64,000 nucleotides of DNA from Lunularia cruciata (lineage: Eukaryota; Streptophyta; Marchantiopsida; Lunulariales; Lunulariaceae), in the NCBI GenBank assembly GCA_948567375.1, contig OX419755.1:54020291-54084290 (forward strand). The letters are read 5' to 3'. Shown here in pieces: positions 30,037 through 62,874 of the stretch. Below the pieces are notes generated by a model, which saw only the letters and a list, made by a program, of their open reading frames with translations, did not search any database and was not told the DNA's origin. The position numbers and the translations under genes are program-made. Position 1 is the first letter of the stretch, and each line of letters opens with the position of its first letter.

Positions 30037-33000
30037 ATGTCTGCATCGAGAGAACAACGGGAAGAGAGAGCTCAAAGACGAGCACTTCAGCGTGAAGAAG
30101 ATGAACGTCTAAACATCCCATCCACTGTGGATGAAACCCAACGAGAGGTGTTGGACTTTCAACTCCTTCACGAAGTGCAAGAAGCCCTGGGAGAAATTGA
30201 CCACAAGAAACGCGAAGGCGGTTGGTAAGGCTACTTTGCATCTCCCTCTTCGACCAAGAAGAAGAAAGACTCGAGCGGCCAAACATATGCATTGCGGCCC
30301 AGTACACCAACTTCCCCTAGAGCTGTAAAGGAAGTCACGTCCTTGAAGAACTTTGTTTGAGAAAAGATAGCACAAACACTTACGGAAGAAGAGTGTCAAC
30401 ATCTTCTTTGAACGATTCCTTGGTTGTCCTGAAGGAATTTTGAAGAACAAATAGAAGGTGTTGATCCTAAATCTTCCACTCGGGTTGAAGTCAACACCCT
30501 CATAGCAAGAAATTGTCAAAGAAGACCCACCTTGAATTTGACAAATTGGAACCCCTGGGCTGACACCACGACGTCAATACCAGCCAATCCTTTGGTTCCG
30601 TCAAGTTCCACACTACGTCAGCCAATCCCAGTGCATCGAATGATGACTTTGCTGCCTGTCACCCGACATGCCTATTAGAAGTACAAGGGGACAGAACAAG
30701 ACAAAGACCTCGATGAATTCATTGAAGAATTCGAAGTCATCTCCTTTGCTAACAAGGAGCATGACTTGGCGGATCGCTTGAGAATTTTCCCAAGTCTACT
30801 TCAAAAGAAAGCTCGGAGCTGGTACACCCATGTGACCCAGAAGGGGTTCGTACCAACGGCGGGGCAAATTTGAGAAACAACTTCTTGGAACGATTCTAGG
30901 AGGTTGATTACGACACGAGTGTCTTCACGACACTCAACGATTTGGACCGAGGCAAGAAGGAGAAGTTGAGAGACTACTCTGAGCGGTTCATGGCACTATT
31001 GAACCGAGTTCCCAAACAATGGGGGGTGGTAGGTTACTCCGATGCCCAAGCCATTACCTGGTTCCTCGGGGGACTGTCACCAGAGATACAAATCTTTGCA
31101 AGGGAGAGGAATGTAACTTCCCTTGACAAGGTACTCAAACATGTTGCTCGTTACGAGGCGGCCTACTCTCACTCTGCCGGCAACCAGAGAAATTGGGAGA
31201 AGAAAGGCAAGAAGCCCAGAAGGAGAGCTTCACGCAGTACATCCTCTTCTTCGGACAAATCCTCCACGTCTTCAAGCTCTTCTTTGGAATCCAAAGAAGA
31301 GTCAAAGCCAAGACAAGTCAGAAGACGTGGAGGCAAGAAACCAGTGACTCCTCCAGCAAAGAGTGTAAATAAAGCTGATACCAAGCTAGATGCCCTCATC
31401 AAGGAGTTTTTGGATTTCAAGATCCAGATGATTGGGGCTAAGGACAGAAGAAAAGCCCCAGCATTTGGAAGATCAAATGTATGGTGCACTGCATGTGGCA
31501 AATCAGGCCACGCCAATATAGAATGCAATACTCGTAATGCATTCCCGGTGCAGCAAATTGATTGGGTTTTGGGATGGAACCAAGACGAGGACGAAGAGGC
31601 TGTGTACCAAACTCAAGAAGTACAGCCTCAAGCGAGCACATCGTATGAAGGTCTGAGGTTTGGACCCAGGGAGTATAACCCCAATGCTCCTTCACAAAGA
31701 CCACCAATGAGCAACCAAAATTGCCCTCAGAATGTTGCACCCAAAGCCTATTATAATTGTGGCTCGATGGGACATTGGTCTCCAAACTGTCCCGAGCCAA
31801 GAAGGCAAATTGGGTACGTTCCCCTGTGCGGAAATTGTAAAGGATCAGGGCATACTGGCAACCAATGTACTTACCCACCAAACCCGAAGCCGCCTGTAAA
31901 GTATGTACAGACCCCCGCTGAGCGTGCCGCACTTCAGCCAAAGGGGGATACTAATGTAAATTGCATTACTCTTGATGAAGAAAGACCTCAAGAAGGGAGT
32001 CTGGCCTTGGAAGGAGAATGGCCGGACCTTGAAATTTTGAAAGTTGAGACACGCTCCAACAAGAAGAAGCGTGATCCCGAAGAACTGAGTACTACCTTGT
32101 CGTCTTCCAGAAAGGCAAAGAGACTACGCCCAAAGGCAATTCTTTCTGCCAAGGAGGAAAAGATCCTCGCAAAAGCCAAAGCTAAAGCCTTGCAGAAAGA
32201 ACTAAAGGAGGCACTACTCAGGACTCGGGAACTGAGTTTGGAAGAGGAGACGAAGACAAAGTCTCCAGTTTTTCCGGCGGATATCCGATCCAAAGTAAAG
32301 GGTCTGATCCAAGCCAAAGTGGGCCAACCCAAGGAACCTCGGGTTAAGGCCATCAGCAAGCCCGTCACCATTTTGAAGCGTCCCGAAGTCAAGAGGGAAC
32401 ATAGAGAGACTTTGGACCTAAAGCCGAAGGCAAAGACGGTCAAATTGGGAGGAGTTCCCCAATACGATATTGTAGCCAATCTGGTAGCCACAAATGCCAA
32501 CATTACATTCAAGCAATTGTGGGAGGATAACAAGCTGTACAAGAGGCAGCTGAATTTGGCACTCAAGAAGGTGAGGTCGATGTCAAAGAAGGACCTGCAT
32601 GCTATCTATCATATTGAGCAAGAAGATTTGGGATCTCTTGAGGTAGACGCGGAGATTGCCGGGTGCATGATCACATTGATACCCATTGACTTTGGGTCCG
32701 GTGTGAATGTCATGACCGAGGATACTGCAAATCGACTCGGGTATCACATGTTTGAACCAACACCCCGAGTGTTGAAATTTGCAGACCTAACCAGGAGACG
32801 GCCATTGGGCATGCTGTTGAACATTACTACAATCATTGGAGGAGTGCCCTTCAAGTTGAATTACATCATGTTGCAACCAGTGACAAAGACTGGTTACCCT
32901 CTGTTGATCGGCAGACCTTGGTTGTACAGTGCCCAAGTTGTGGTGGATTGGCATCAGCAGAAGTTAAGATTCAAGGACATTTCATCCGAAGATCAAAAGC

Positions 33001-33422
33001 TGGTGATTGTGAGTTGGACGAAGGTTCTCCATCTTGGGGAAACAAGTTCGTTGGAAGAGGAGGACAAATCCGAAGACTCATCGTCTTTGTCCTCAGACGA
33101 ATCCGAAGACAAAGTCCAAGTTAATTACTTGGAATGCTACGAGGTGGATGTTGAAGACAAAGATCCATATGACCTCACCTCGGGTGAACCGGACTTGGAG
33201 GAAGGGGGTTTGATGGCATCTCACCTCAGGTTAAGCCGAGTAAGCCACGTTGAAGGAGTCATCAAACCCGATGACTGTCAAGATGTTTTATTAATTGAAG
33301 GAAAAATTTTAAAAATTTCAAAGATAGTTACTTTAGAGGAGTTGGCAGGATACACTGCCCTGTTTATAGAATTCCATGATGTATTCGCCTGGTCGATTGA
33401 TCAAATGCCAGGTATTCCATGA
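30037..33422 (+). pseudogene. Element E gag and protease
   Basis: The start ATGTCTGCATCGAGA at 30037 opens a charged N-terminus (MSASREQREERAQRRALQRE). A capsid region follows at 30690-31150 (DLDEFIEEFEVISF, LADRLRIFPSLLQKKARSWY). After small frame changes near 30230 and 30870 the main frame is open from 30942 to 33422 (826 codons). It shows a Ser/Lys-rich linker and zinc knuckles CTACGKSGHANIEC and CGNCKGSGHTGNQC. A third, YNCGSMGHWSPNC, has its first Cys replaced by Tyr. The protease site is at 32685-32703 (IDFGSGVNVM, catalytic Asp 32688-32690, where DTGS is usual). The frame ends at a TGA that looks like a decayed CGA, then continues into RT. Confidence 0.85.
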
Positions 33423-36107
33423 GAATTTGGAGAAAACCGGATTGATTTGGTTGAAGGTGCAGTTCCGGTTCGGCAACGGCAATACCGCTTGAACCCAAAG
33501 TACTCGCTGTTGGTGAAAGATGAAATAGATAAGTACTTAGGGGCCGGAATCACCTTCCTTGTCTTAAGCAGTGAATGGGTCTCCCCTATTGTCATTGTTC
33601 CAAAGAAGAAAACAAGGAAGATCCAAGTGTGCCAAGACTTCCGGAAGTTGAACGCAGTCACAAGGAAAGATCATCATCCCTTGCCTTTTACCGATACAAT
33701 TTTAGATCAGGTAGCGGGGCATCCTTGCTATAGTTTTCTAGATGGATTTTCAGGGTACAATCAAGTATCCATTCAAGAAGAAGACAAGGATAAAACTACA
33801 TTCACGACCGATTGGGGCACTTTTGCTTACAATCAAATGCCCTTTGGGTTGTGTAATGCTCCCGCTACTTTCCAGCGGATGATGAATTCAATATTCAAAG
33901 ATTTCCTGTGCAAATTTGTGGAAGTTTTCATTGATGACTTTTGTGTGTTTGGACGAAGAGATGTACATTTAGATTAGCTTTGCCAAACATTTGAAAGGTG
34001 TCATTTTGCCGGCTTGTCATTACACCCAGAGAAATGCTTCTTTGCAATGAAGGAGGGAATTCTTTTGGGGCACCGGGTGTCAAGCCAAGGTATTGAAGTC
34101 GATGTTGAGAAGGTCAAGATAATTGTAGCTTTGGAATCCCCGAAGAACATCCGGGAGCTAAGAGCCTTCTTGGGACATGTCGGATACTACAGACGCTTTG
34201 TGTCAAACTATGCAGTGCTTGCTGCACCACTTACAAAGCTTCTGAAGAAATCCAAAGACTATCTGTGGGAAGCAAATCAAGAAGAAGCTTTCCAGGTGTT
34301 GAAGAAGAAGCTGGTTGAAGCACCAGTTATGAGGGCCCCAAATTGGGATGTCCCTTTTCATGTATATGTGGACACTTTGTCCATGGCCATCGGAGTCTTC
34401 TTAAGTTAGAAGGACAAAAAGAAGAAGGACTACCCGGTGTATTATGCCAGCCGACAACTTTCAGTTTCTGAAAAGAACTATTCAACGACTGAAAGAGAAG
34501 CACTCGGAATGGTATATGCTTGCAAGAAATTTTGCCATTATCTGTTGGGATACAAGTTTGTCTTCTATGTTGACCATTACGCCTTGCAACATTTTGTCAA
34601 GAAGGCAGATTTATCTGGGTGAATTGCAAGATGGATCTTGTTGTTACAAGAGTTCACATATACTATACAAGTAAGGAAGGGAGCTTTGCATTCAAATGCG
34701 GACTTCCTGTCCAGGTTAGAAACTCAAGACCAGGAGTGGAAAATTGACAATTGGTTCCCTGATGAAGAGTTGTATCACTTATCAGCAATGCAAAGTACGA
34801 GGTATGCAGCTGAATATCATTATCTGAATACTCTCCATTGTCCTGAGGGGATGGACCTAGAACAGCGGGCAGTCTTTCTCAAGAAAATAGGGCCGTACCA
34901 GCTTAAACACAACATTTTATTTAAGATGGGCAAAGACAAAGTACTTCGGCGATGCTTGGAGACATACAAAGTAGGCGGAGTGATTGAATCTTTGCACTCC
35001 AAAGCATCGAGAGGACACTATGCTCTAAAGAATACTGTAAAGAAAATTCTTTTGGTAGGGTATTGGTGGCCTACAATGTACAAAGATGTACATGCTCATA
35101 TCCAAAGCTGTGATGCTTGTCAAAGAACAGGGAAACAGACGGCTACTTCTCAATGGCCTTTGAGACCAATTTTGCCTTTGGCCCCATTTGAGAAATGGGA
35201 GATTGATTTTGTGGGTCCTATTCAACCAGTGACCCGAGTAACAAGAAAGCGATACATTTTGGTTTGCACTGACTATGCTACCAAGATGGTCAGCGCTGAA
35301 GCAACTTGTAGAGATGATGCTGAAATGGTGGCAGAATTTTTCTTTCAAAACATCATCTCCCGATATGGGTGTCCTCTAGAATTGGTCAGTGACCGAGGAA
35401 CACATTTTTTGAACTTTGTAATAGAGGCGTTAACCAAGTACTTTCAGATTAAACATCGGAAGATGACTCCTTATAACCCAAAAGCAAATGGCTTAACGGA
35501 AAAAGCAAATGGGTTACTTTGTAAAATTTTGAATAAGGTGATTGTCAATTACGCCTATGATTGGGATACAAAATTACCAGCCGCGTTGTGGGCATATCAA
35601 ATGACTGAAAAGATTACAACCAAACAAACTCCATACTTCTTGACATATGGCTTGCATCCCATACTGCCAATTGAATTTGAAGTTCCGACATATTGGGTTC
35701 TTTGCAAAGAACAAATGTCGGAAGAAGACAGTCAAGATCTTTAGATTCATCAACTGATGTGGTTAGAAGAGAAAAGAGATGATGCAATGCAAACCACGAA
35801 AGAAGTCCAAGCATAGAGGAAAGCCAGGCACGATAAGAGAATCAAGCCTGTGGCTATACGTGAAGGAGATTTAGTTTTGTTATATGACAATCGCCAAATA
35901 TTTTTTCCAGGCAAGTTGCATTTGAGATGGATGGGTCCCTATCGAGTTCTTCATCTTTACAAAAATGGGTTCATGCAGCTTGTAGACTTGGAAGGTAATC
36001 CTTTTGCCACTCGAGTAAACGGGTGGAGAGTTCGGAGATATTGGACCATAGACTCGGAAGTTTCTAAAACACCCAAGGTCTATGTTTGCGGGGACGCTCA
36101 TATTTGA
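33423..36107 (+). pseudogene. Element E reverse transcriptase, RNase H, integrase
   Basis: Same frame as gag, interrupted by five stops (33975, 34407, 34620, 35742, 35814). RT runs from about 33460 to 34250, with YSFLDGFSGYNQV, MPFGLCNAPATFQRMM and catalytic FIDD at 33927-33938. RNase H (YVDTLSMAIGVFLS, TTEREALGMVYA, VDHYALQ) runs 34360-34610. The integrase zinc region ends CDACQRTGK near 35120. The core has WEIDFVGP (about 35200), SDRGTHF (about 35390) and NGLTEKAN (about 35490), so the D,D,E triad is present. The C-terminus has WMGPYRV and VNGWRVRRYW and ends 36107. There is no chromodomain. The element would be autonomous but for the stops. Confidence 0.9.
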
Positions 36108-51390: not shown

Positions 51391-52282
51391 AATCTATATG
51401 TTACATTAGTGTTATTTAATATGGTAGGTAAACTAGTAGAAAATCATTTAGATTTAGTAAAAATGCTAGTTATAGACAATAACTTTTGAATTTGATAGTG
51501 AACTTTAGTATTTATGGAAATTAGGGTTTTTTTCACATAAAATAATGTGTTTTTCTAAAGTAAAAAGTACTTTCTAGGTAGTAACTTAGATAGTTGCCAA
51601 AACAAGGGGCTGCTATATATTATGGGCAGTCGTGGGTAGAGAGAAAGAGTTTTTGGAAGGAATCTATGAGAAGGGAGGTTTGGAAGGAAGAGAGAAGAAA
51701 GGAAGACAAGAAACAAAGAAGGAGGTTTTTTGAGGGAATCAAACAACGAGAAAGGAAGACAAGAAATGAAGAAGGAGGTTTTTGAGGGAATCAAATAAAG
51801 AGAAAGGAAGATATGAAACAAAGGAGGAGGTTTTTAAGGGGATCAAACAGAGAAGAAAGGAAGACAAGAAATGAAGGAGGAGGTTTTTGAGGGAATCAAA
51901 TAGAGAAGAAAGGAAGACAAGAAATGAAGGAGGAGGTTTAAAGGAATCTACTAGAAGAATCAAGAGATAGAAAGGCAAAGAGGGAGAGACAGGAAATAAA
52001 GAGGAGGATATCAAAAGGAAGAGAGAGAGAGAGAAGACAAAAACAAAGGAAAGTAGGAAACCATCAGAAGGCAAAGAGAGGAATCAAAGATATGAAATTA
52101 GAGAGAGGAATCAAGAAGATAGAAAAGTAGGAGAATGGAATCAAAAGGCAAAGAGAGGAAATGAAGATAGAAACAAAGGAGAAAGGAAATCATAGAAAGG
52201 TAGAGAGAGAGAAACAAAACAAAGGAGAAAGGAAACAATTGAAAGGCATAGAGAGGAAACAAAGATATGAAGCAAGGAGAAT
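51391..52282. other. Unassigned, purine-rich stretch before element D
   Basis: No domain recognised. The part 51640-52280 is rich in gaaagga-type sequence, including a degenerate minisatellite. A motif ctatatattatggg occurs near 51612. Confidence 0.5.
51712..51960 (+). repeat. Minisatellite of about 55-60-bp units
   Basis: Four to five units built from 'gaaggaggtttttgaggg', 'aatcaaa', 'gagaaaggaagacaagaaat' recur between 51712 and 51960. Unit length varies slightly. Confidence 0.75.
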
Positions 52283-52731
52283 TGTCACGCCATTTGTAGT
52301 GCCGCGTCTAGATGCTCGGACACTGGAGTTCCAGTGATAGTAGTTAGAGTTTTTCTAGAAGTTTCTCAGAGACTACTTTCCGATGGTTAGATTTTGTGTT
52401 TAGGGTACTGACTTCACAGTGGGGCCCACGTCACTTTGCACCGTTTGCACCATTGAGTGTGCCGTCAGCGGGACCGTTAGGGTTTCAAAGCTAGCTCGAG
52501 TCCAGGGGGTATAGTTTTGAAGTGAGCTCTAGAGAGCTCACTTCTCTGATGTTGAGCCTTCGAGTTCCTAGCTATGGTGGACAGAGGCCGGCGAGCATCA
52601 CCTGGATTCTCTATGCTTGAGTGGGTGTGGCTTGACTATAATCAGTGCCCAATTGTTGGCAGTTTATAGAGTGATAGATCAAGTACTGATCTGAGTTGAG
52701 TTGAGTTGAGAGTGGTAAGCAATCTGATTAT
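52283..52731 (+). mobile_element. 5' LTR of element D
   Basis: 449 bp beginning TGTCACGCCATTTG and ending AATCTGATTA. It matches 62320-62769 over its full length with scattered differences. It holds gagttgagttgagttgag near 52692-52710. Confidence 0.82.
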
Positions 52732-52740
52732 ATCAGAGAA
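52731..52740 (+). other. Degenerate initiator tRNA-Met primer site of element D
   Basis: TTATATCAGAG directly follows the LTR and matches TGGTATCAGAG in nine of eleven positions. The leader then runs 52741-54176, with no convincing frame. A 115-codon frame at 53054 is probably chance. Confidence 0.6.
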
Positions 52741-53439
52741 GTCAAGTCAGGGGAAATCGGGTGCAGGAACTTTGAGTGTTGGTGGTATCTCCAAGCTCGG
52801 TGGATCGTGGTAGCTCGATTCAAGTTCAGTGTTTCCCTAGTGTGCAGAAGCTCGTTCAAGTGATGTAGATTTGGTAGTAAGGCGGACGGTGTACGGAAGT
52901 GTTGGTCAAATTTTGAGCAAAGAAGGAGCAATTTTCGAGCAGTGGTTGTGATTTTGAGCTCAAGAGGTGAAGGCATGACCAATTTGCTACGAGTTTGGCT
53001 TAGAAAGTCAAATTGAAGGTGGAGTTGGGAAGCTCTTCTCATGAAATTGTGATTTGGAAAAACCTGTGTTGTCAATTTGGCTGGAGTGGAAAGTTAGCGG
53101 GGGATTTGGTGGACAGCCATCTTTAGGGTTTACGTCAGATTTTACATCAGATTTTGGTTGGGATTTATGTCAGATTTTGGCCAGATTTGGAGGAGTTTTG
53201 CTAGTTTGGAGGAGTTTCGCAAATTTGGAGAAGTTTCACCAATTTTGGAGGAGGTTTGAAGTGGCAACAAGAAAGGTCTCATTGAGGCACTTTCTTGTTT
53301 TGAGGCTTCGAGGCATAGGGTTGTGGGCTATGAGAGGCTACAAAGGCCTAGAAGGGCCAGCAAGCCAGCTTGTTGGCATGAGGCTAGCTAGTTTAGAGTA
53401 GATCTTGGTCATTGGTTGGCAAAATCTGCCTTTCTTGCT

Positions 53440-54176: not shown

Positions 54177-55460
54177 ATGAGGGAGGAGATTGACTCTGAG
54201 TTGGAGTTCGACACAGGAGCTCATTCAATTGAGAGTGCACTTGGTGTGTCCGCACCATTGTTGTGGGACATGGACAAGATTTATGGGGCCTCCAAAGGCC
54301 CTAGGCGTTACTCTGGTACAATGGGTACCATTGAGTTGGATGACTTCATCCAGGAGTTCGATAGTTGGTATGATCTATAGTAGATGCGGAACCCGACTTT
54401 GTTCACACCCTTCATGGCATGGAAGGGGTTGTTTCAGCATGTGGAGGGTCCACCAATGGACGACTACCATGGGTTCAGGAGAGCTCATTTGGAGGAGATT
54501 GAGTTATGGAGACAGTATTGGTCTCCACACTATGTCTCCATCACTTCAGGCTCGGTGGCCAGGAGTAGATCAGCTATACCTACGAGTTCTAGCTTGAGTA
54601 GTGTGGGTGGAGCTAGTGGAGGTGCACTAGCTGGAGATAGTGCTACTACGAGTGGAAGCACCGCTGCAGGAGGTGGTGTGGTACCGAGGTTTAACTCCAT
54701 GGTGGAGTTCTTCCTGTGTTTAAGGCAGAACTACCAGGGAGTGCGGACTGACAAGCTGAGGAGCCTGCAAGAGTTCCAGCGAAAGGCTGGAGAGAGCCTA
54801 CGTGAGGCATACACTTGCATGAGGCAGCTGATCAGTTTCACTCAGGGAGTTACTGAGGCCCAAGTAGTCCAATTTTGGTATGGGATACTAGACAAGGAGT
54901 TGCAACGTAGAGTTCGTGATGCTACGTTGTTGCAGGCTACTTTGCCCACTTTGGCAGTAGTCTTTGGTTTGGCTGAGCGTATTGAGCTCAATATGGTGGA
55001 GGAGAGAGTGGTGACATCTGGATTTGGTAGGGAGACCTCATCCACGACTATGACTTCTTCTAGAGTGCAGCAGAGTGCACCATGCCCAGTTGGTTTTTGA
55101 GGACAGGGTGGACAGCCCAGATCCTATGGAGCGAGTGGAGGGCCTAGTGGAGTTAGACCCTTACCCTCATTTTTGGGTCAGTAGTAGCCAATGAGTGATG
55201 GTGTTGCTTGTTGGACTTGTGGTGGACTTCACCATAGGAGAGAGTGTACTCAGGGCAGTGGACCTGATACCTCTAGTGCATCACAACCAACATAGAGGTA
55301 GTGTGAGCACTGCCATAGATTTGGTCACACTAGTGACCGGTGTTTTGACCTACACCCGGAGTTACAGAGTGGTAGGGCTGCTATGGCAGGTAGTAGAGGA
55401 GCTCCAATTCATGGAGGACGAGGTGGTGGTAGAGGATCTACACCTAGTAGGGATGCAGTA
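54177..55460 (+). pseudogene. Element D gag with two CCHC zinc knuckles
   Basis: Frame from ATG 54177. A capsid region includes MGTIELDDFIQEFDSWYDL, then VEFFLCLRQNYQGVRTDKLR and SLREAYTCMRQLISF, typical of Ty3 gag (about 54320-55010). Zinc knuckles are CWTCGGLHHRREC near 55209-55247 and CEHCHRFGHTSDRC near 55305-55346. A Gly/Arg-rich tail follows (GGRGGGRGS). In-frame stops (pair at 54378, 55098, pair near 55183, two near 55295-55303) are mostly TAG. A Ser/Gly-rich linker lies inside the capsid part. The frame is cut by solo LTR C at 55461 and resumes in the same phase at 56157. Confidence 0.82.
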
Positions 55461-55461
55461 T

Positions 55462-56151
55462 TGTAACACCCATTTGTGCATGTGTGTGGTATTGTGATAT
55501 TTAGCTTGGTATTACAAGTACTTAAGAGATATTATTTATATAGAGATAAAGGATGGTTCTATATTAGTGATGGTTAGCTAAAGTTAGTCATAGCTAAGAT
55601 AGATGGGACCTTACTTTAGAGGAAGTAGAAAAGATGAGCACCACTATTTTGGATTTTAGTGTGTTGACTTGGTATTATTCCTAGGTGTTTGGCTTTGAGG
55701 AAAGAGTTGAGAACTCTTGGGCCCGCAAGCCTTTTTGTTTTGGATTCTTCTTTAGTCCAAGGATAGCCCATGTGAAGGAATCCTTGACTTAGTGGTTGGG
55801 TCAAGATAAGACCACATGCTTAGGGGAATATGCCCATGTGAATGGATATTCCTTTCTACTTTTTGACTTGACTTGACTTTTAGTCTAGTAACTTGAGTTA
55901 CTCCGATAATTAGTAACTTTGGTACGTAACTATTTCACAAGTATATAAACAAGGGGTGAGGAGGTACTCATCATCTTTTCATTTGCAACTATTTCTCTCT
56001 CATTGAGTTCTCTAGTGAGCAATGTCTTGAGTCTTGAAGTGTTAGCCTTGGAGGAGTATGATGGAGTTCGGGTTCTTTGCCTTCTTAGTCCATGGTGCGC
56101 TACCATAATAGCCATCAGAGGTTCATCCTGAGTGAGAGACAGGCCGGCTCA
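55462..56151 (+). mobile_element. Solo LTR C inserted in gag-pol of element D (target duplication CAGTA)
   Basis: 690 bp from TGTAACACCC to GGCCGGCTCA, flanked by cagta at 55456-55460 and 56152-56156. One extra t precedes the LTR. It matches the minus-strand LTR at 20798-21492. The second D copy (18482-18640) runs across this point without the LTR, confirming an insertion. A TATA box (GTATATAAAC) is at 55941-55950. Confidence 0.9.
55941..55950 (+). promoter_or_regulatory. TATA box of solo LTR C
   Basis: GTATATAAAC is conserved in the other LTR C (minus strand, near 21003). It lies about 200 bp before the LTR end. Its presence inside element D could have altered transcription of the downstream methyltransferase region. 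That is inference. Confidence 0.5.
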
Positions 56152-56156
56152 CAGTA

Positions 56157-57656
56157 CCTGCCCTTACTTCTGACACAACTATGGCTACTTGGATTGAGCA
56201 GTTGGAGCAGAGATTGGCTAGTATGGCTATTGCTCAGAGGAGATCAGATTCGGGTGCTGAGGCTTCCACCTCATATGTTGGTGATAGAGATGCTTTGGAC
56301 TTCATGTGCGGAGCAGCACAGGTGGATGCATCTGCAGCAATGACTAGGAGTGCAATACATGCTCCAGAGCCTAGAGGAGCATCAGTGGAGTTGGACCCAT
56401 AGAGAGGAGAGGTTGGGAGACAGGTCAGACTTCCCCAGTCTTTCACGCTATTTGAGGCATTGCAAACGACATCCATGGTTCCTAGATGTCCTAGTGTAGG
56501 TGTGGTAGGTGGTGATGGAGTACTTGATGGACTACCTGCTAGTCAGCCACCTGCTACTACACAGACTGAGTCTAGCATGATGTTGGGGGCGGCTTAGCTG
56601 ATTATGCGGCATCTTTTGTTTTTGGCCAGTGATATGTTTACATTGGAAGTTGACCCAGCCCCAGTATTCCGGTTGGCTGCCACGTTGTGTGAGAGTAGGG
56701 ATGGTGCAGTTCCTACTACTAGAGCAGAGGGGGTTGGTAGTGGAGTTGACTTGGTTGAGGAGCATGGGATCCGTTCAGTGACCAATGGTTTATGGCAGGC
56801 AATAGTGGCTAGACTGGAGGAGTTGCTAGTTAGACCAGCCTTTGAGAGAGCACGGTTTACACCTGGTGTTGTCCTATTGGATAACATGAGGGGGATTTTT
56901 CATTTGGTAGGACCTTCAAGGAAGGTCTATACACCACAGAGAGTCTTGTTAGACTCTGGTGTGCAGCCTCTTATGTTGGAGAAGGCTGAAGTTGTCGGTC
57001 TGGAGTTACGGAAGACCGATGTGGAGAGGTATCCATTTCAGATCCAGACATCTCTAGGTGGTGGTTCAACATAGTACATCACACATGGAGAGCTTGTTGT
57101 CCAGGTTCAGCCTGGTCATCCAATTGATAGCTTGGTGGTGAGAGCTCAGGCTATTGCAACGATAGCTGAGTCATATGATGTGCTAGTTGGGGGAGCAGTG
57201 TTATACCCTATGGGTTTCAGCATTGACTATTGGGAGGAGACAACCTCTTATAAACCTGGTTGGCAGTCTAGTGAGGGACGGGTATGTTGCCTACCAGTAC
57301 GCTTCAGTAGTGGCAGTCTTGGCTCACTACAGGCCGGGACCATAACAACATCAGTTTTAGCTTTCAGTGGTGCAGTTACTTGGCCTGGTGACTTGTTGGA
57401 GGGGAATGCTCATGCAGAGGATACTCCAGTACCAAAGGAGATCACTCGGCTATGGAGTACGAGTGGGATTGTTCCATCCACCTTAGATGTTCCATTGTGG
57501 AGTTCAGAGGAGGCATTGCAGCAGCATGCAGATCAGTTGGTGCAGAAGGCTTGGAGTGGAGCCTTTGTACCATCAGGAGATGAGTGTGAGGATGAGCCTC
57601 CAGAGGCAATTGCTTTGACACCTCTCAATACCACACTCATTGCTTGGCAATATCCA
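56157..57656 (+). pseudogene. Element D gag-protease segment
   Basis: Continues gag in the same frame. A short coiled-coil-like start (MATWIEQLEQRLASMAIAQR at 56181) and a linker come first. A helical segment follows (LWQAIVARLEELLVRPAFER near 56790-56850). The aspartic protease has LLDSGVQPLMLEKAEVVGL, with catalytic Asp codon 56952-56954, and its C-terminal part ESYDVLVGGAVLYPMGFSID lies near 57165-57230. A linker leads to the methyltransferase. In-frame TAG stops lie at 56400, near 56596 and at 57072. The same blocks occur in the decayed copy at 18600-19820. Confidence 0.8.
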
Positions 57657-58752
57657 ATGAAGGGGATATGCCTATTGGAGTTGTTTGGTGGGATCAGCAC
57701 CAGACTAGCTACGGTGTTACAGGCGGGTATCCGAGCACAGAGGTACTTGTATGTAGAGAGAGATGAGACTGCTAGGCGAGTCTCTCTACATCATGTGGCA
57801 CACTTGGCCTATTGATATCCGGAGTTATTACCAATGTCAATAGTCAGAGGTTACCAAAAGGCCTTACCAGGAGACATTTCCTTACTGGGGGCGCATGACC
57901 TAGAGAGACATGGGCCTATTCACTTGGTGATTTCTGGATGGCCATGTCAGGGACATACACGTGCAGGCCGCGGTTTGGGTCTTTAAGATCCTTGTTCTGG
58001 TGTGTTTTGGGAGATGTTACGGATACTACAACATCTCCAGGTTCATCAGTATGTTTCTCTAACTTACCTTTTGGAGAATGTTCCTTTGATGGGTGATTCT
58101 TGCACTAGAGTGGTGGTGAGTACACATCAAGTCCATTCTTGGATGAGACTTGCTGTATTGTTAGATGCAGCCAGAGTGGGATCACGAGCTCATCATCTTC
58201 GTCTTTGGTGGACAAACCTCTTACCTAGAGAGGTTCTACAACGCGCTTATGATGGGATTCAGCGACTTGACCACATCCTTGTTGATGATATCTTGGATGT
58301 TGGGCGTTAGTCTCAGACAGTGGTATGGCTGATAGGTCACCTATGGCAGTGGTGAACCTAGTTGGACAGCCTAGAGCTGCATTTCCCACACTCATGAGTT
58401 TCCCAGGCTCTCATGCTTTTTGAGAGGGAGGACCTGGACTTGTTTGGGACTCACAGTTACAGCAATTGGTGGAGCCCAATGCTGATGAGAGAGAGAGTGG
58501 GTGATGGGTTTTTGTACTGATATTACCGCTGTTCCAGTAGTGTCAGAGGCATCCAAGCATCAAGTGTTAGGTCAGGCTATAGACCTAAACTGTTTGACCT
58601 GGATTATGAGCCTTGGCTTGGCAGAGCAACGTAGGAGGAGTGGCTTGTCACCACTCGGACACTTGCGAGCCCTGTGCCTATCAAGACGATTTAGGGACAT
58701 GCTAGGGGTGATGGACCGAGCGGACATGGTATTCTTGGGACACATCCAGTAG
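57657..58752 (+). pseudogene. Retrotransposon-borne cytosine-5 DNA methyltransferase
   Basis: Motifs in canonical order. Motif I is LLELFGGISTRLATVLQAGI (about 57672). The second-strand acidic block is YVERDETAR (about 57750). Motif IV is VISGWPCQGHTRAGRGLGL with catalytic PCQ at 57942-57950. Motif VI is YLLENVP with ENV at 58074-58082. A motif VIII-like DAARVGSRAHHLRLWWTNLLP block is near 58166-58230. Motif IX region is AAFPTLMSFPGSHAF (about 58370-58415). Motif X-like HQVLGQAIDLNCLTW is near 58560-58600. Such enzymes flip out cytosine and methylate C5 using S-adenosylmethionine. The order excludes the rearranged DRM class; the motif VIII block recalls DNMT3. Two in-frame stops (57813, near 57985) and two frameshifts (near 58310, and in a GA run near 58490) disable this copy. 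It lies in frame with protease and before RT, so it belongs to element D. Confidence 0.9.
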
Positions 58753-60569
58753 CTACTAGGGAGAGTGGTCTACTTGGAGTCCATCCAGGTGAGCGTGAGC
58801 TACTTGGATTACATCCTTGGTCCACATGGGATGCAACCAGAGGACATGTGGAGCTTGCAGCCAGAGTGGAGGGAGTTTTTCACATAAAGGTTGGGACTTC
58901 TAGTGGTAAGGAGCATGGCACTATTGCTCCCAAGGGCCCAATGTAGCAGTCAGTCAGTACGTCTTCCACTCCTACTACAGTTATAGAGGATACTTGGGAG
59001 CCAAATCTTGGACCCAAGCTTATTGGAGAGGAAAGACGGAGGGTCTGGAGGTTCTTGAGGAGTCACACGAGTTGTTTTGCCTTCAGTATGAAGGATTTGG
59101 GTGCTCTAAAGGGACCTGGTATATGGATTGAGTTGACTAGCGACACACCAGTTTTCCGACGTCCTTATCAATATAGTGATATGGAGAGGACATTGATTTA
59201 GAGCCGGAGTAGTGACCTTTTTGAGGCTGGTTTGGTGGAGATTTCACATGGAGAGTATGCATCAGCGACAGTGATGCCAGCCAAGAAGGATATGCATGGC
59301 AACTATACAAATAGGCGGTTGTGTGGAGATTACCATCCTATCAACCAATAGACCAGGGCTGATCGGTATGCCATGCCTACACCAAAGGAGATTTTTGATG
59401 CAATTGGGCATGCAAAGGTCTTTAGTACTTTGGATCTTTGAGCGGGATATCATCAATTGCCGATCAGGGAGGAAGATAAGTCCAAGACAACATTCTGGGC
59501 TATTGATCCTCACGGCAAGGATGTGTTATATCAATGGAGGTTCTTACCATTTGGGTTGAAGAATGCTCTTGCTGAGTTCCAGAGGGTCATGGATAGGATC
59601 CTAGCTGGATTGGATTTTGCTCGGTGCTATATTGATGACATTCTGGTTTATAGCACTACCGTGGAGGAGCATGAGAGACAATTGTTGGAGGTGTTTGAGA
59701 GGTTGAGATCTCATGGACTCAAATTACATCTTGGGAAGTGTAGGTTCTTCCACGAGCAGGTTGAGTATTTGGGTCACATTGTCTACCCCGGAGGACTTGG
59801 TGTTCAGCAGACCAAGGTGGAGGCTATTGCACGTATTCCTCGGCCTACGGATGTGAGCAAAGTGCGAGCATTCTTTGGGTTGGCGAACTTCTATCACCGC
59901 TATGTTAGAGGATTTAGTGCCATTGCCAAGGCCTTGACAAAGCTGACCAAGCTTACACAGGAGTGGTGTTGGGGAGATGAGCAGGAGAGAGCTTTTGTAG
60001 AGCTCAAGGAGAGGTTGACATCTGCTCCTATTTTGAGGAGACCGATCAGGGGACGACCATTTCAGGTTCACACTGATTGGAGTATGTTGGGGCTTGGAGC
60101 GGTGCTCACCCAACATGATGATGAGGGTAAGGAGTTTGTGGTGGCCTATGCTAGTCACTCCAACAATTCAGCGGAGGTGAAGTATAGTTCATATGAGGGA
60201 GAGTGCTTGGCAGCAGTTTGGGCAGTAGCACATTTCCGATGTTACCTATTTGGTATTCCCTTCACTCTCATCATTGATCATCAGCCGCTGAAGTGGTTGA
60301 TGGAGTCCGACAAGCTTTCAGGGAAGCTTGCACGATGGGCTCTGATTTTACAGGAGTATGATTTCACGGTTGTTCATAAACCTGGAGTGGTGAACCATGA
60401 TGTAGATGCGTTGAGTAGAAACCCATGTCACAGCCAGCAGGATCAGACCGGAGCATGTTGGCATGGTGAGACAGATGAGGAGGTGGTGCCAGGTTGGCAT
60501 GCATCGGCCTTTCTATGTATATTTGCAGAGGCTTTGGTGGTATCTCTCTCATATAGGAGGAGTTATTGA
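58753..60569 (+). pseudogene. Element D reverse transcriptase and RNase H
   Basis: A linker (58753-58960) leads to RT. N-terminal blocks are FSMKDLGALKGPG and FRRPYQYSDMER (59090-59190), then SATVMPAKKD, RLCGDYHPIN and STLDLxAGYHQLPI (59270-59465). From 59457 the frame is open to 60569. It holds RFLPFGLKNALAEFQRVMDR and YIDD at 59628-59639, the thumb LGHIVYPGG, and connection VRAFFGLANFYHRYV. RNase H motifs are VHTDWSMLGLGAVL, YEGECLAAVWAV, IIDHQPLKWL and VDALSRNP. Stops remain near 59200, 59350 and 59438. The polymerase active site and RNase H acidic residues are intact in this copy. Confidence 0.9.
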
Positions 60570-61893: not shown

Positions 61894-62043
61894 GGCTTGA
61901 GGTGTATGTTATGTGGCTCTTCTGGTGGAGCTGCTACTATGTTAGTGTGTGATAGCTATTTGAGAGGATGGCATATGGCATGCATGACTCCTCCCCTCAC
62001 GGTGGTTCCTCAGGGACAGTGGTTATGTCCTAGATGTACTTGA
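61894..62043 (+). pseudogene. C-terminal PHD finger of element D pol
   Basis: In frame with the integrase tail. The pattern is C-x2-C (CMLC, from 61903), then VCDSY, GWHMAC, and WLCPRC before the TGA at 62041. This matches a C4HC3 PHD finger, including the Trp before the last Cys pair. The fourth Cys position reads Tyr, a single-codon decay. PHD fingers read histone H3 tails; here it stands where chromoviruses carry a chromodomain, so a role in choosing chromatin targets for integration is a reasonable inference. Confidence 0.82.
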
Positions 62044-62212
62044 CCTATAGCTAGTTCATTCTTTATATGGTATAGATTGCAGACAGGCGACTAACGATGG
62101 AGCTCCATAGCACCCGGCCTCCTGATCTTTGCCCATTAGAGGGTATACCATATACTTAGAGTAGATGGCTATCTGGAGTTAGAGGGACCTAACCGCCAGC
62201 TAGGGGTGCGAT

Positions 62213-62317
62213 TGTGGCACTTTAGAGTCTATGTATGACTTATGTGTGAGTTGTGTTTCTATAGTGTATGATGTTGACAATGATGTATGTTGTGTAGCAA
62301 TGTATATACGCACAACA
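62213..62317 (+). repeat. 105-bp repeat X, copy 1, before the 3' LTR of element D
   Basis: TGTGGCACTTTAGAG...CACAACA. It is preceded by GCTAGGGGTGCGAT, which looks like a polypurine tract. Copy 2 lies at 62770-62874, directly after the LTR. Confidence 0.85.
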
Positions 62318-62319
62318 AC

Positions 62320-62769
62320 TATCATGCCATTTGTAGTGCCGTGTCTAGATGCTCGGACACTAGAGTTCCATTGATAGTAGTTAGAGTTATTCTAGTAGTT
62401 TCTCAAAGACTACTTTCCGACGATTAGATTTTGTGTTCGAGGTCCTGACTTTACGGTGGGGCCCACCGTCACTTTGCACTGTTTGCACCGTCGAGTGTGC
62501 CGTCAACGGGACCGTTAGGGTTTCAGAGCAAGCTTGAGTCCAGGGGGTATAGTTTCAAAGTGAGCTCCAGAGAGCTCACTTCTCTGATGTTGAGCCTTCG
62601 AGTTCTTGGCTATGGTGGATAGAGGCCGGCGAGCGTCACCTGGATTCTCTATGCTTGAGTGGGTGTGGCTTGACTATAATCAGTGCTCAATTGTTGGCAG
62701 TTTATAGAGTGACAGATCAAGTACTGATCTGAGTTGAGTTGAGTTGAGAGTGGTAAACAATCTGATTAT
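62320..62769 (+). mobile_element. 3' LTR of element D
   Basis: 450 bp starting TATCATGCCATTTG (TGTCACGCC in the 5' copy) and ending AATCTGATTAT. Differences from the 5' LTR are scattered and mostly transitions. Confidence 0.85.
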
Positions 62770-62874
62770 TGTGGCACTTTAGAGTTTATGTATGACTTAT
62801 GTGTGAGTTGTGTTTCTATAGCATATGATGTTGACAACGATGTATGTTGTGTAGCGATGTATATACGTACGACA
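62770..62874 (+). repeat. 105-bp repeat X, copy 2, after the 3' LTR of element D
   Basis: TGTGGCACTTTAGAG...CGTACGACA, the same as 62213-62317 with a few changes. It abuts the LTR with no gap. Its end GACA mirrors the TGTC with which the 5' LTR begins. Confidence 0.85.

Follow-up and report, generated by a model that had tools for sequence, protein, structure and literature searches.

A stretch of 64,000 nucleotides (nt) from the liverwort Lunularia cruciata (hereafter, the window; assembly GCA_948567375.1, contig OX419755.1, positions 54,020,291 to 54,084,290 of the forward strand) contains a decayed Ty3/gypsy retrotransposon in which a cytosine-5 DNA methyltransferase (DNMT) of the DNMT3 type is predicted between the protease and the reverse transcriptase (RT). 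The family to which this copy belongs is predicted to encode gag, protease, DNMT3-type DNMT, RT-RNase H, a DDE integrase and a PHD finger, and its terminal repeats are split into two parts, A and B, arranged as A-coding-B-A-B. DNMT-carrying retrotransposons had been reported in two settings, dinoflagellates and a charophyte alga, without an assigned role (de Mendoza et al. 2018, PMC5890265). As a whole, our observations are likely to be explained by a high-copy DNMT3-bearing Ty3/gypsy element, decayed in the window, that would insert by way of a DNA circle, with the roles of the DNMT and the PHD finger proposed more weakly.

The translation of positions 57633-58307 (with X at stops) matches PF00145 at 25.4 bits (E 1.2e-5), above the curated cut-off of 22 bits; four stop-free pieces of the window scanned separately gave no PF00145 match at E <= 0.1, and positions 58388-58750 gave none in three frames. 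Motifs I, IV (PCQ), VI (ENV) and VIII, assigned by eye, lie in a single frame up to 58310, which by coordinates is the protease frame (56604, 57132 and 58002 are each divisible by 3), and motifs IX and X, also assigned by eye, lie past a frameshift in the open reading frame (ORF) 58501-58752. The window copy is decayed, being interrupted by stops and by this frameshift. A protein search with 57132-58307, the protease-to-DNMT frame, returned 71 proteins at E <= 1e-3, the best at 5e-121, so the likeness to DNMTs does not arise by chance. Positions 57657-58640 are accordingly annotated as a predicted, decayed DNMT3-type cytosine-5 methyltransferase between protease and RT. An earlier, sequence-only reading of the window had recognized a DNMT, from these motifs in this order, between protease and RT in a Ty3/gypsy-type pol; Pfam, motifs and homologues all bear out that identification, with motifs IX and X beyond the frameshift and with the PF00145 match that it had proposed to look for. 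It overlooked the PHD finger as well as the splitting of the terminal repeats.

By sequence similarity, DNMT3 is the nearest class to the element's DNMT, ahead of DNMT1, DNMT2 and the bacterial enzymes. When compared with the PDB, a relative from the protein search (P0007) scored best with DNMT3A (48.4 bits), followed by DNMT3B and DNMT3C, and more weakly with 4onj (37.6 bits), DRM2 (23.9), HaeIII (22.8) and HhaI (19.4). The chain 4onj, whose record is named only 'DNA methyltransferase', we take to be a plant DRM. The family profile scored 69.6 bits with DNMT3A, 43.2 with 4onj, 32.8 with DRM2, 30.3 with a tRNA-C38 (DNMT2-type) enzyme and 29.3 with HaeIII, and no DNMT1 or CMT chain was among its 51 PDB chains at E <= 1e-3. 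This ranking bears on an alternative role, in which the target of the DNMT-like domain is RNA, or its effect is to restrain transposition of the element for the host's sake, rather than to mark the element's cDNA in advance. Both RNA methylation (for a LINE family) and host benefit are discussed by de Mendoza et al., and the domain of KnitGypsy-Dnmt3, the element of the charophyte Klebsormidium nitens, showed no activity in yeast, a result its authors call inconclusive (PMC5890265); the class assignment, in contrast, favours DNMT3, which acts on DNA, over the DNMT2-type tRNA enzyme, and we find this alternative doubtful.

The catalytic residues are widely kept. Of the 133 DNMT domains that fill 180 or more of the 323 model positions, 53 span every one of the 14 key columns. 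In 51 of the 53, the exceptions being P0080 and P0185, both PC and EN survive, as they do in 27/27 all-column domains from ORFs of 1100 amino acids (aa) or more. Across the 133 domains, the proline column of motif IV holds P in 108, E in 4, Q in 1 and a gap in 20. Three Closterium proteins outside the 53 (P0186, P0188 and P0191) have ECQ instead of PCQ in motif IV and a gapped domain; RT is retained in P0186 and P0188, and the Closterium DNMT domains may be catalytically dead.

In the assembly to which the window belongs (565,766,749 bases, 74 contigs), PF00145 gave 2161 first-look candidates, and 123 were scored and listed as above cut-off, a copy number that is a lower bound. Of 28 PF00145 loci examined, 24 were placed in the family, on the basis of DNMT and ends (c1-c10), ends (c11-c20, with repeat B alone for c15) or the family profile (L008-L011). 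The remaining loci comprise a host DNMT3-type exon (L004; PDB DNMT3C 60.8 bits, DNMT3A 57.8 bits; with a presumed intron), a DRM-like locus (L005, by eye), a weak match (L007) and one locus with no match (L006). Copies c1-c20 were picked mainly for long open frames, and their intactness is therefore biased upward. Three neighbouring family copies were chosen without regard to the DNMT: two hold it (one broken), and the stretch taken for the third missed the DNMT place and is uninformative. The DNMT segment in the window copy is therefore not a one-off. The sequence-only reading had allowed that other copies might lack the segment; they were found to carry it, nearly all copies examined having been selected through their DNMT. 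That the DNMT is a passenger, captured by chance or inserted into one copy, would suit the broken state of the window copy, and is already contradicted by copy number (the 123 scored matches), by conservation (catalytic residues intact in distant families), by the signal of purifying selection described next and by the two neighbouring copies that hold the DNMT; we give this idea almost no credence.

The selection analysis of DNMT, protease and RT drew on 15 copies (c1-c10, L008-L011 and the window, not all complete), and that of integrase and PHD finger on 11. Single-change codons were split into those common to at least two copies and singletons, with stop codons excluded; codon sites are not fully independent. 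Nonsynonymous:synonymous counts for shared and singleton changes, respectively, were 30:34 (omega 0.29) and 78:37 (0.69) for DNMT, 22:26 (0.24) and 67:38 (0.50) for RT-RNase H, 16:16 (0.34) and 36:13 (0.93) for protease, 2:4 (0.16) and 13:5 (0.81) for PHD finger, and 10:5 (0.60) and 32:15 (0.64) for integrase. Shared changes depart from neutrality with p 1e-6 for both DNMT and RT, 0.002 for protease and 0.03 for PHD finger, and DNMT singletons do so with p 0.04; Fisher tests of shared against singleton changes gave p 0.007 for DNMT and 0.05 for RT. Pooled pairwise dN/dS without the window was 0.43 for DNMT, 0.32 for RT-RNase H, 0.33 for PHD finger, 0.63 for protease and 0.63 for integrase. In these alignments, the shared substitutions indicate purifying selection on the DNMT.

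Relatives of the element extend through the bryophytes. All organism-labelled matches among the 71 proteins are from this group (Calypogeia, Sphagnum, Marchantia and Riccia), and the extension of DNMT retrotransposons to land plants, which the sequence-only reading had put forward should the host prove to be one, holds by these source labels. A profile search gave 345 matches, the best 120 of which add Marchantia paleacea and one row labelled as a bacterial metagenome-assembled genome (MAG); a search among long proteins yielded 46, which bring in Closterium and Sphagnum fallax. Plant-like Ty3 content, the host DNMT3-type exon and named relatives that, apart from two MAG contigs, come from bryophytes or Closterium agree with a bryophyte host, probably a liverwort. 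No row named Klebsormidium is among the matches listed (for the profile search, the best 120 of 345). Two relatives on viral contigs (L001 and L002) were set aside, as they seem by eye to be ordinary phage-type C5 methylases.

One relative, L003 (1-9285), is filed as a Synechococcales (cyanobacterial) MAG; its 127-nt ends are identical, and we infer a circular assembly path. It carries two intact ORFs, encoding gag-protease-DNMT (ORF1; 1346 aa, across the contig start) and RT-RNase H-integrase-PHD (ORF2; 1043 aa), with Pfam support for its domains apart from gag, the protease being sub-threshold. Its identity to the window is 25% in the gag-like region, 33% and then 62 and 55% over protease-DNMT, and 63 and 60% from RT to PHD finger; a separate comparison put its DNMT at 50% identity. 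Another relative, P0091, is filed under an Obscuribacterales MAG, and both are probably eukaryotic contamination of bacterial MAGs. In P0183, a single 1991-aa ORF with the order RT-RNase H-DNMT-integrase-PHD, the DNMT (residues 802-1129) lies between RNase H and integrase, not between protease and RT, and may reflect relocation or a separate capture. The N-terminal DNMT-like part of P0193 was found by the family profile and not by Pfam, and Closterium P0186 has DNMT, RT and H2C2 with no rve match. The PHD finger stands at the polyprotein end in most relatives examined and scores above cut-off in L003, P0183, P0190 and P0035. In the PDB, the PHD region of L003 is most similar to PHF12, to a protein labelled Cph2, to CHD4 and UHRF1 and to KDM5-type fingers, several of which read the unmodified histone H3 tail. 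Quick trees were made for RT (11 rows) and for DNMT (48 rows); their branches are long, and a number of forks stay open. Both trees group Marchantia with the window and leave L003, P0183, Closterium and P0193 outside, which is compatible with, and does not prove, an old association.

The features of the window copy are as follows.
52283..52729 (+), terminal repeat A1, beginning TGTCACG; left boundary of the inserted element; 92.6% identical to 62322-62769
52730..52745 (+), primer-binding-like site, ATCAGAG, directly 3' of A1; weak
54177..55460 (+), 5' part of the gag-like region; tblastn of L003 ORF1 matches 54306-54902 (25% identity, 1e-10); zinc-knuckle-like motifs by eye
55461..56151 (+), secondary insertion in gag, 691 bp, with the 5-bp duplication CAGTA
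56604..57074 (+), aspartic-protease-like segment, LLDSGVQPLML, with DSG by eye; tblastn of L003 ORF1 matches over 56421-58322
57657..58640 (+), predicted DNMT3-type methyltransferase, decayed, with a frameshift near 58310-58500
58989..60527 (+), reverse transcriptase and RNase H, 63% identical to L003 ORF2; PF00078, PF17917 and PF17919
60592..61485 (+), DDE integrase, decayed; H2C2 zinc-binding PF17921 (31.8 bits) and rve core
61903..62037 (+), PHD finger at the polyprotein C-terminus; PF00628, 37.2 bits
62199..62210 (+), polypurine-tract-like GCTAGGGGTGCG, before B1
62211..62317 (+), terminal repeat B1, 93.5% identical to 62768-62874
62318..62319 (+), two nucleotides separating the arms of the B1-A2 palindrome, which has decayed in the window copy
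62320..62767 (+), terminal repeat A2
62768..62874 (+), terminal repeat B2, terminating in CGACA, the right end of the element

The 691-bp insertion is missing from 3/3 copies compared and is probably a solo long terminal repeat (LTR) of another element. No protease match was found by Pfam in the window piece, and in L003 the protease (PF13650) reached 20.5 bits, below the cut-off of 24.3. Pfam matches to RT and RNase H fall within the window piece 59457-60566, and the rve core (PF00665) scores 29.2 bits in the window, below the cut-off of 32.6, against 51.7 bits in L003. One zinc cysteine of the window PHD finger is replaced by Tyr; the C4HC3 spacing is kept in 9 of the 10 copies c1-c10, with a stop inside one of the nine. 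Downstream of the PHD finger, a noncoding block (62085-62120) is 86% identical to L003 over 37 nt. A purine-rich repeat (51674-52271, about 71% alike) adjoins the element's left side. The window also holds a second Ty3-type element (30942-35744) with an 826-aa gag-to-protease-like ORF and an RT 36% identical to that of L003; no DNMT was noticed between its ORF and its RT, and no dedicated search was made. Rfam gave 0 gathering-level matches in the window.

The ends of the element do not have standard full LTRs on both sides; A stands at the left and B-A-B at the right. In the window, alignment pairs A1 (52285-52731) with A2 (92.6%) and B1 (62211-62317) with B2 (93.5%), and the A-coding-B-A-B layout recurs in 15 of 20 fetched copies. 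It is clean in seven of the first ten (c3 is without B2, c8 without A1, and in c1 the end made up of purine tract and B-A-B is tandemly duplicated, at L013 4161-5661) and present in eight of the second ten; in the stretches taken, the left A of c16, and both A copies and B2 of c15, were not found. A1-A2 identity, measured in 15 copies plus the window (in c14 over just 297 nt), is 88.2-99.8%, with a median of about 97.9. Elements begin with TGTCACG and end with CGACA, with right-end variants CAACA (c5) and TGACA (c17). Of 17 elements with both ends, 13 are flanked by an exact 4-bp target duplication and none by a 5-bp one, against a 4-bp match in 0/272 control cross-pairs. The B1-A2 junction fits (G/A)ACA-NN-T(G/A)TCA in 15/17 elements and is the exact palindrome GACAGCTGTC in 11/17, and the same palindrome stands at the end of a B-like stretch in the distant L003. 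GGGGGG precedes B1 in 13/16 elements other than the window, with CTAGGGGGGG at that place in L003, and the primer-like ATCAGAG, which weakly resembles the complement of the tRNA-iMet acceptor, follows A1 in 16/17. At A2-B2, 13 of 15 readable junctions share a single standard form; the exceptions are c4, which retains primer-site letters, and c5, which retains one letter from the purine-tract side.

Because this layout is that of SymbioDIRS-Dnmt3, the element could be viewed as a DIRS-type element integrating through a tyrosine recombinase. This identity was rejected, although split repeats are a trait of the DIRS order: Pfam scans of L003, P0183, P0186 and P0193 contain no tyrosine recombinase, a DDE integrase core is present in L003, P0183 and P0193, and 13/17 elements have target duplications, making a DIRS element highly improbable. 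The order of RT-RNase H followed by DDE integrase, together with the short target-site duplication, is that of Ty3/gypsy.

By retroviral rules, the purine tract and the primer site delimit the ends of the cDNA. As the purine tract precedes B1 and the primer-like site follows A1, reverse transcription would give a linear B-A-coding-B-A molecule. Joining of its ends would close a circle with an A2-B2 junction, and the leftover letters at A2-B2 in c4 and c5 fit such end-joined cDNA. The integrase would then cut both strands of the palindrome at B|A inside the repeat and drop the two-letter spacer, and the insertion product, a circularly permuted cDNA with the order A-coding-B-A-B, would have the observed termini and 4-bp duplications. 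We thus infer a DNA circle as the integration intermediate; as a precedent, foamy virus integrase is reported to cleave the palindrome of a 2-LTR circle (PMC1180852). Alternatively, the split repeats could form during reverse transcription, with the integrase using an ordinary linear cDNA that starts with A and ends with B. The 4-bp duplications require only linear ends TGTC and GACA, and a circle was not observed; however, the purine tract and primer site put the cDNA ends at the start of B and the end of A, and the letters kept in c4 and c5 resemble joined ends, so we regard the linear route as rather unlikely. More tentatively, the DNMT might methylate new, unchromatinised DNA (linear or circular), which would be marked in advance of entering the nucleus or chromatin, and the PHD finger might guide the integrase by reading the histone H3 tail.

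The methylation footprint of the copies themselves can be read from A1-A2 differences, which in seven copies comprise 56 transitions and 8 transversions. C-T-type changes, counted without a known direction, occur at rates of 0.10 at CG, 0.058 at CHG and 0.011 at CHH. This pattern points to copies methylated at CG and CHG after insertion, like a silenced plant transposon. The sequence-only reading had suggested that the element used its enzyme to place or mimic host methylation; host enzymes alone would explain the footprint, which does not distinguish the element's enzyme from that of the host. A reading of CpG loss as the mark of the enzyme encoded by the element is not supported (0.324 in the element, 0.325 in the rest of the window and 0.40 to 0.50 in other copies).

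Several points weigh against the circle-using, DNMT-assisted element that we propose. The circle, a transcript and enzyme activity of the element are predicted rather than observed. Four of 17 elements (c1, c4, c17 and the window) are without an exact target duplication, the primer site shows no complement to the tRNA CCA end, and an A-coding-B product of a one-repeat circle was not demonstrated, c15 ending in B alone with its left end not found. The integrase is without significant constraint by the shared-change test (omega 0.60, p 0.25, 11 copies), and the DNMT stretch contains 24 stop codons over 15 copies, as RT-RNase H contains 29. Closterium P0186 has no PHD match, and the PHD finger of P0193 is below cut-off. 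Finally, given the silenced-like CG and CHG footprint, the DNMT provides no visible escape.

Two open questions on DNMT elements become testable. Because the family is abundant in one genome, with some copies recent, the role of the DNMT becomes accessible in tractable bryophytes, and the target duplications, together with the junctions, make the hitherto unexplained Gypsy A-coding-B-A-B layout a matter of a specific integration pathway that can be checked. It is also unusual for a single element to combine, as predicted here, a writer of DNA methylation with a reader-type module, the PHD finger. By title and abstract opening, no report of a land-plant DNMT retrotransposon was found among the open-licence matches listed, nor, among the matches listed, any of a PHD finger in a Ty3 element or of a Gypsy element with split repeats. 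The main text of a plant LTR survey (PMC6317226) is without 'methyltransferase', 'PHD', 'Marchantia' and 'Klebsormidium', and the main text of PMC9985172 is without 'methyltransferase'.

Several known systems invite comparison. Chromoviruses are plant Ty3/gypsy elements with a chromodomain on the integrase. They share with the Lunularia element a Ty3-type pol and a chromatin-reader-type module after the integrase, whereas the Lunularia element has a PHD finger in place of the chromodomain (Pfam scans of L003 and P0183 show no chromodomain and a PHD finger instead), an additional DNMT and split repeats. Foamy virus 2-LTR circles (PMC1180852, as above) likewise involve an integrase that cuts a palindrome from joined ends; there, the palindrome is the LTR-LTR junction, whereas the palindrome of the Lunularia element is internal to the repeat unit, with A2-B2 as the expected remnant of the joined ends. 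SymbioDIRS-Dnmt3 of dinoflagellates (PMC5890265) resembles our element in combining a DNMT3 domain with RT and in its repeat layout, and differs in having a tyrosine recombinase rather than a DDE integrase with 4-bp duplications. KnitGypsy-Dnmt3, the precedent for the present element, likewise has Gypsy domains, a Pol ORF that includes a domain of the DNMT3 class, a DNMT under purifying selection and A-coding-B-A-B repeats, a layout published without a mechanism (PMC5890265). By comparison, the Lunularia element resides in a land plant with 123 scored PF00145 matches in its genome, carries a PHD finger (a term that is not in the main text of PMC5890265) and has its target duplications and junctions described. 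It is a tentative possibility that Ty3-type elements of bryophytes, and perhaps of further streptophytes, include a class that inserts from a covalent DNA circle. A DDE integrase would cut a palindrome within the repeat unit of that circle, by analogy with circle-forming bacterial insertion sequences, and the captured DNMT3 would serve to methylate the circle before it becomes chromatin; a circle route, if true, would explain the layout common to the three DNMT3-bearing types considered here, SymbioDIRS, KnitGypsy and the Lunularia element.
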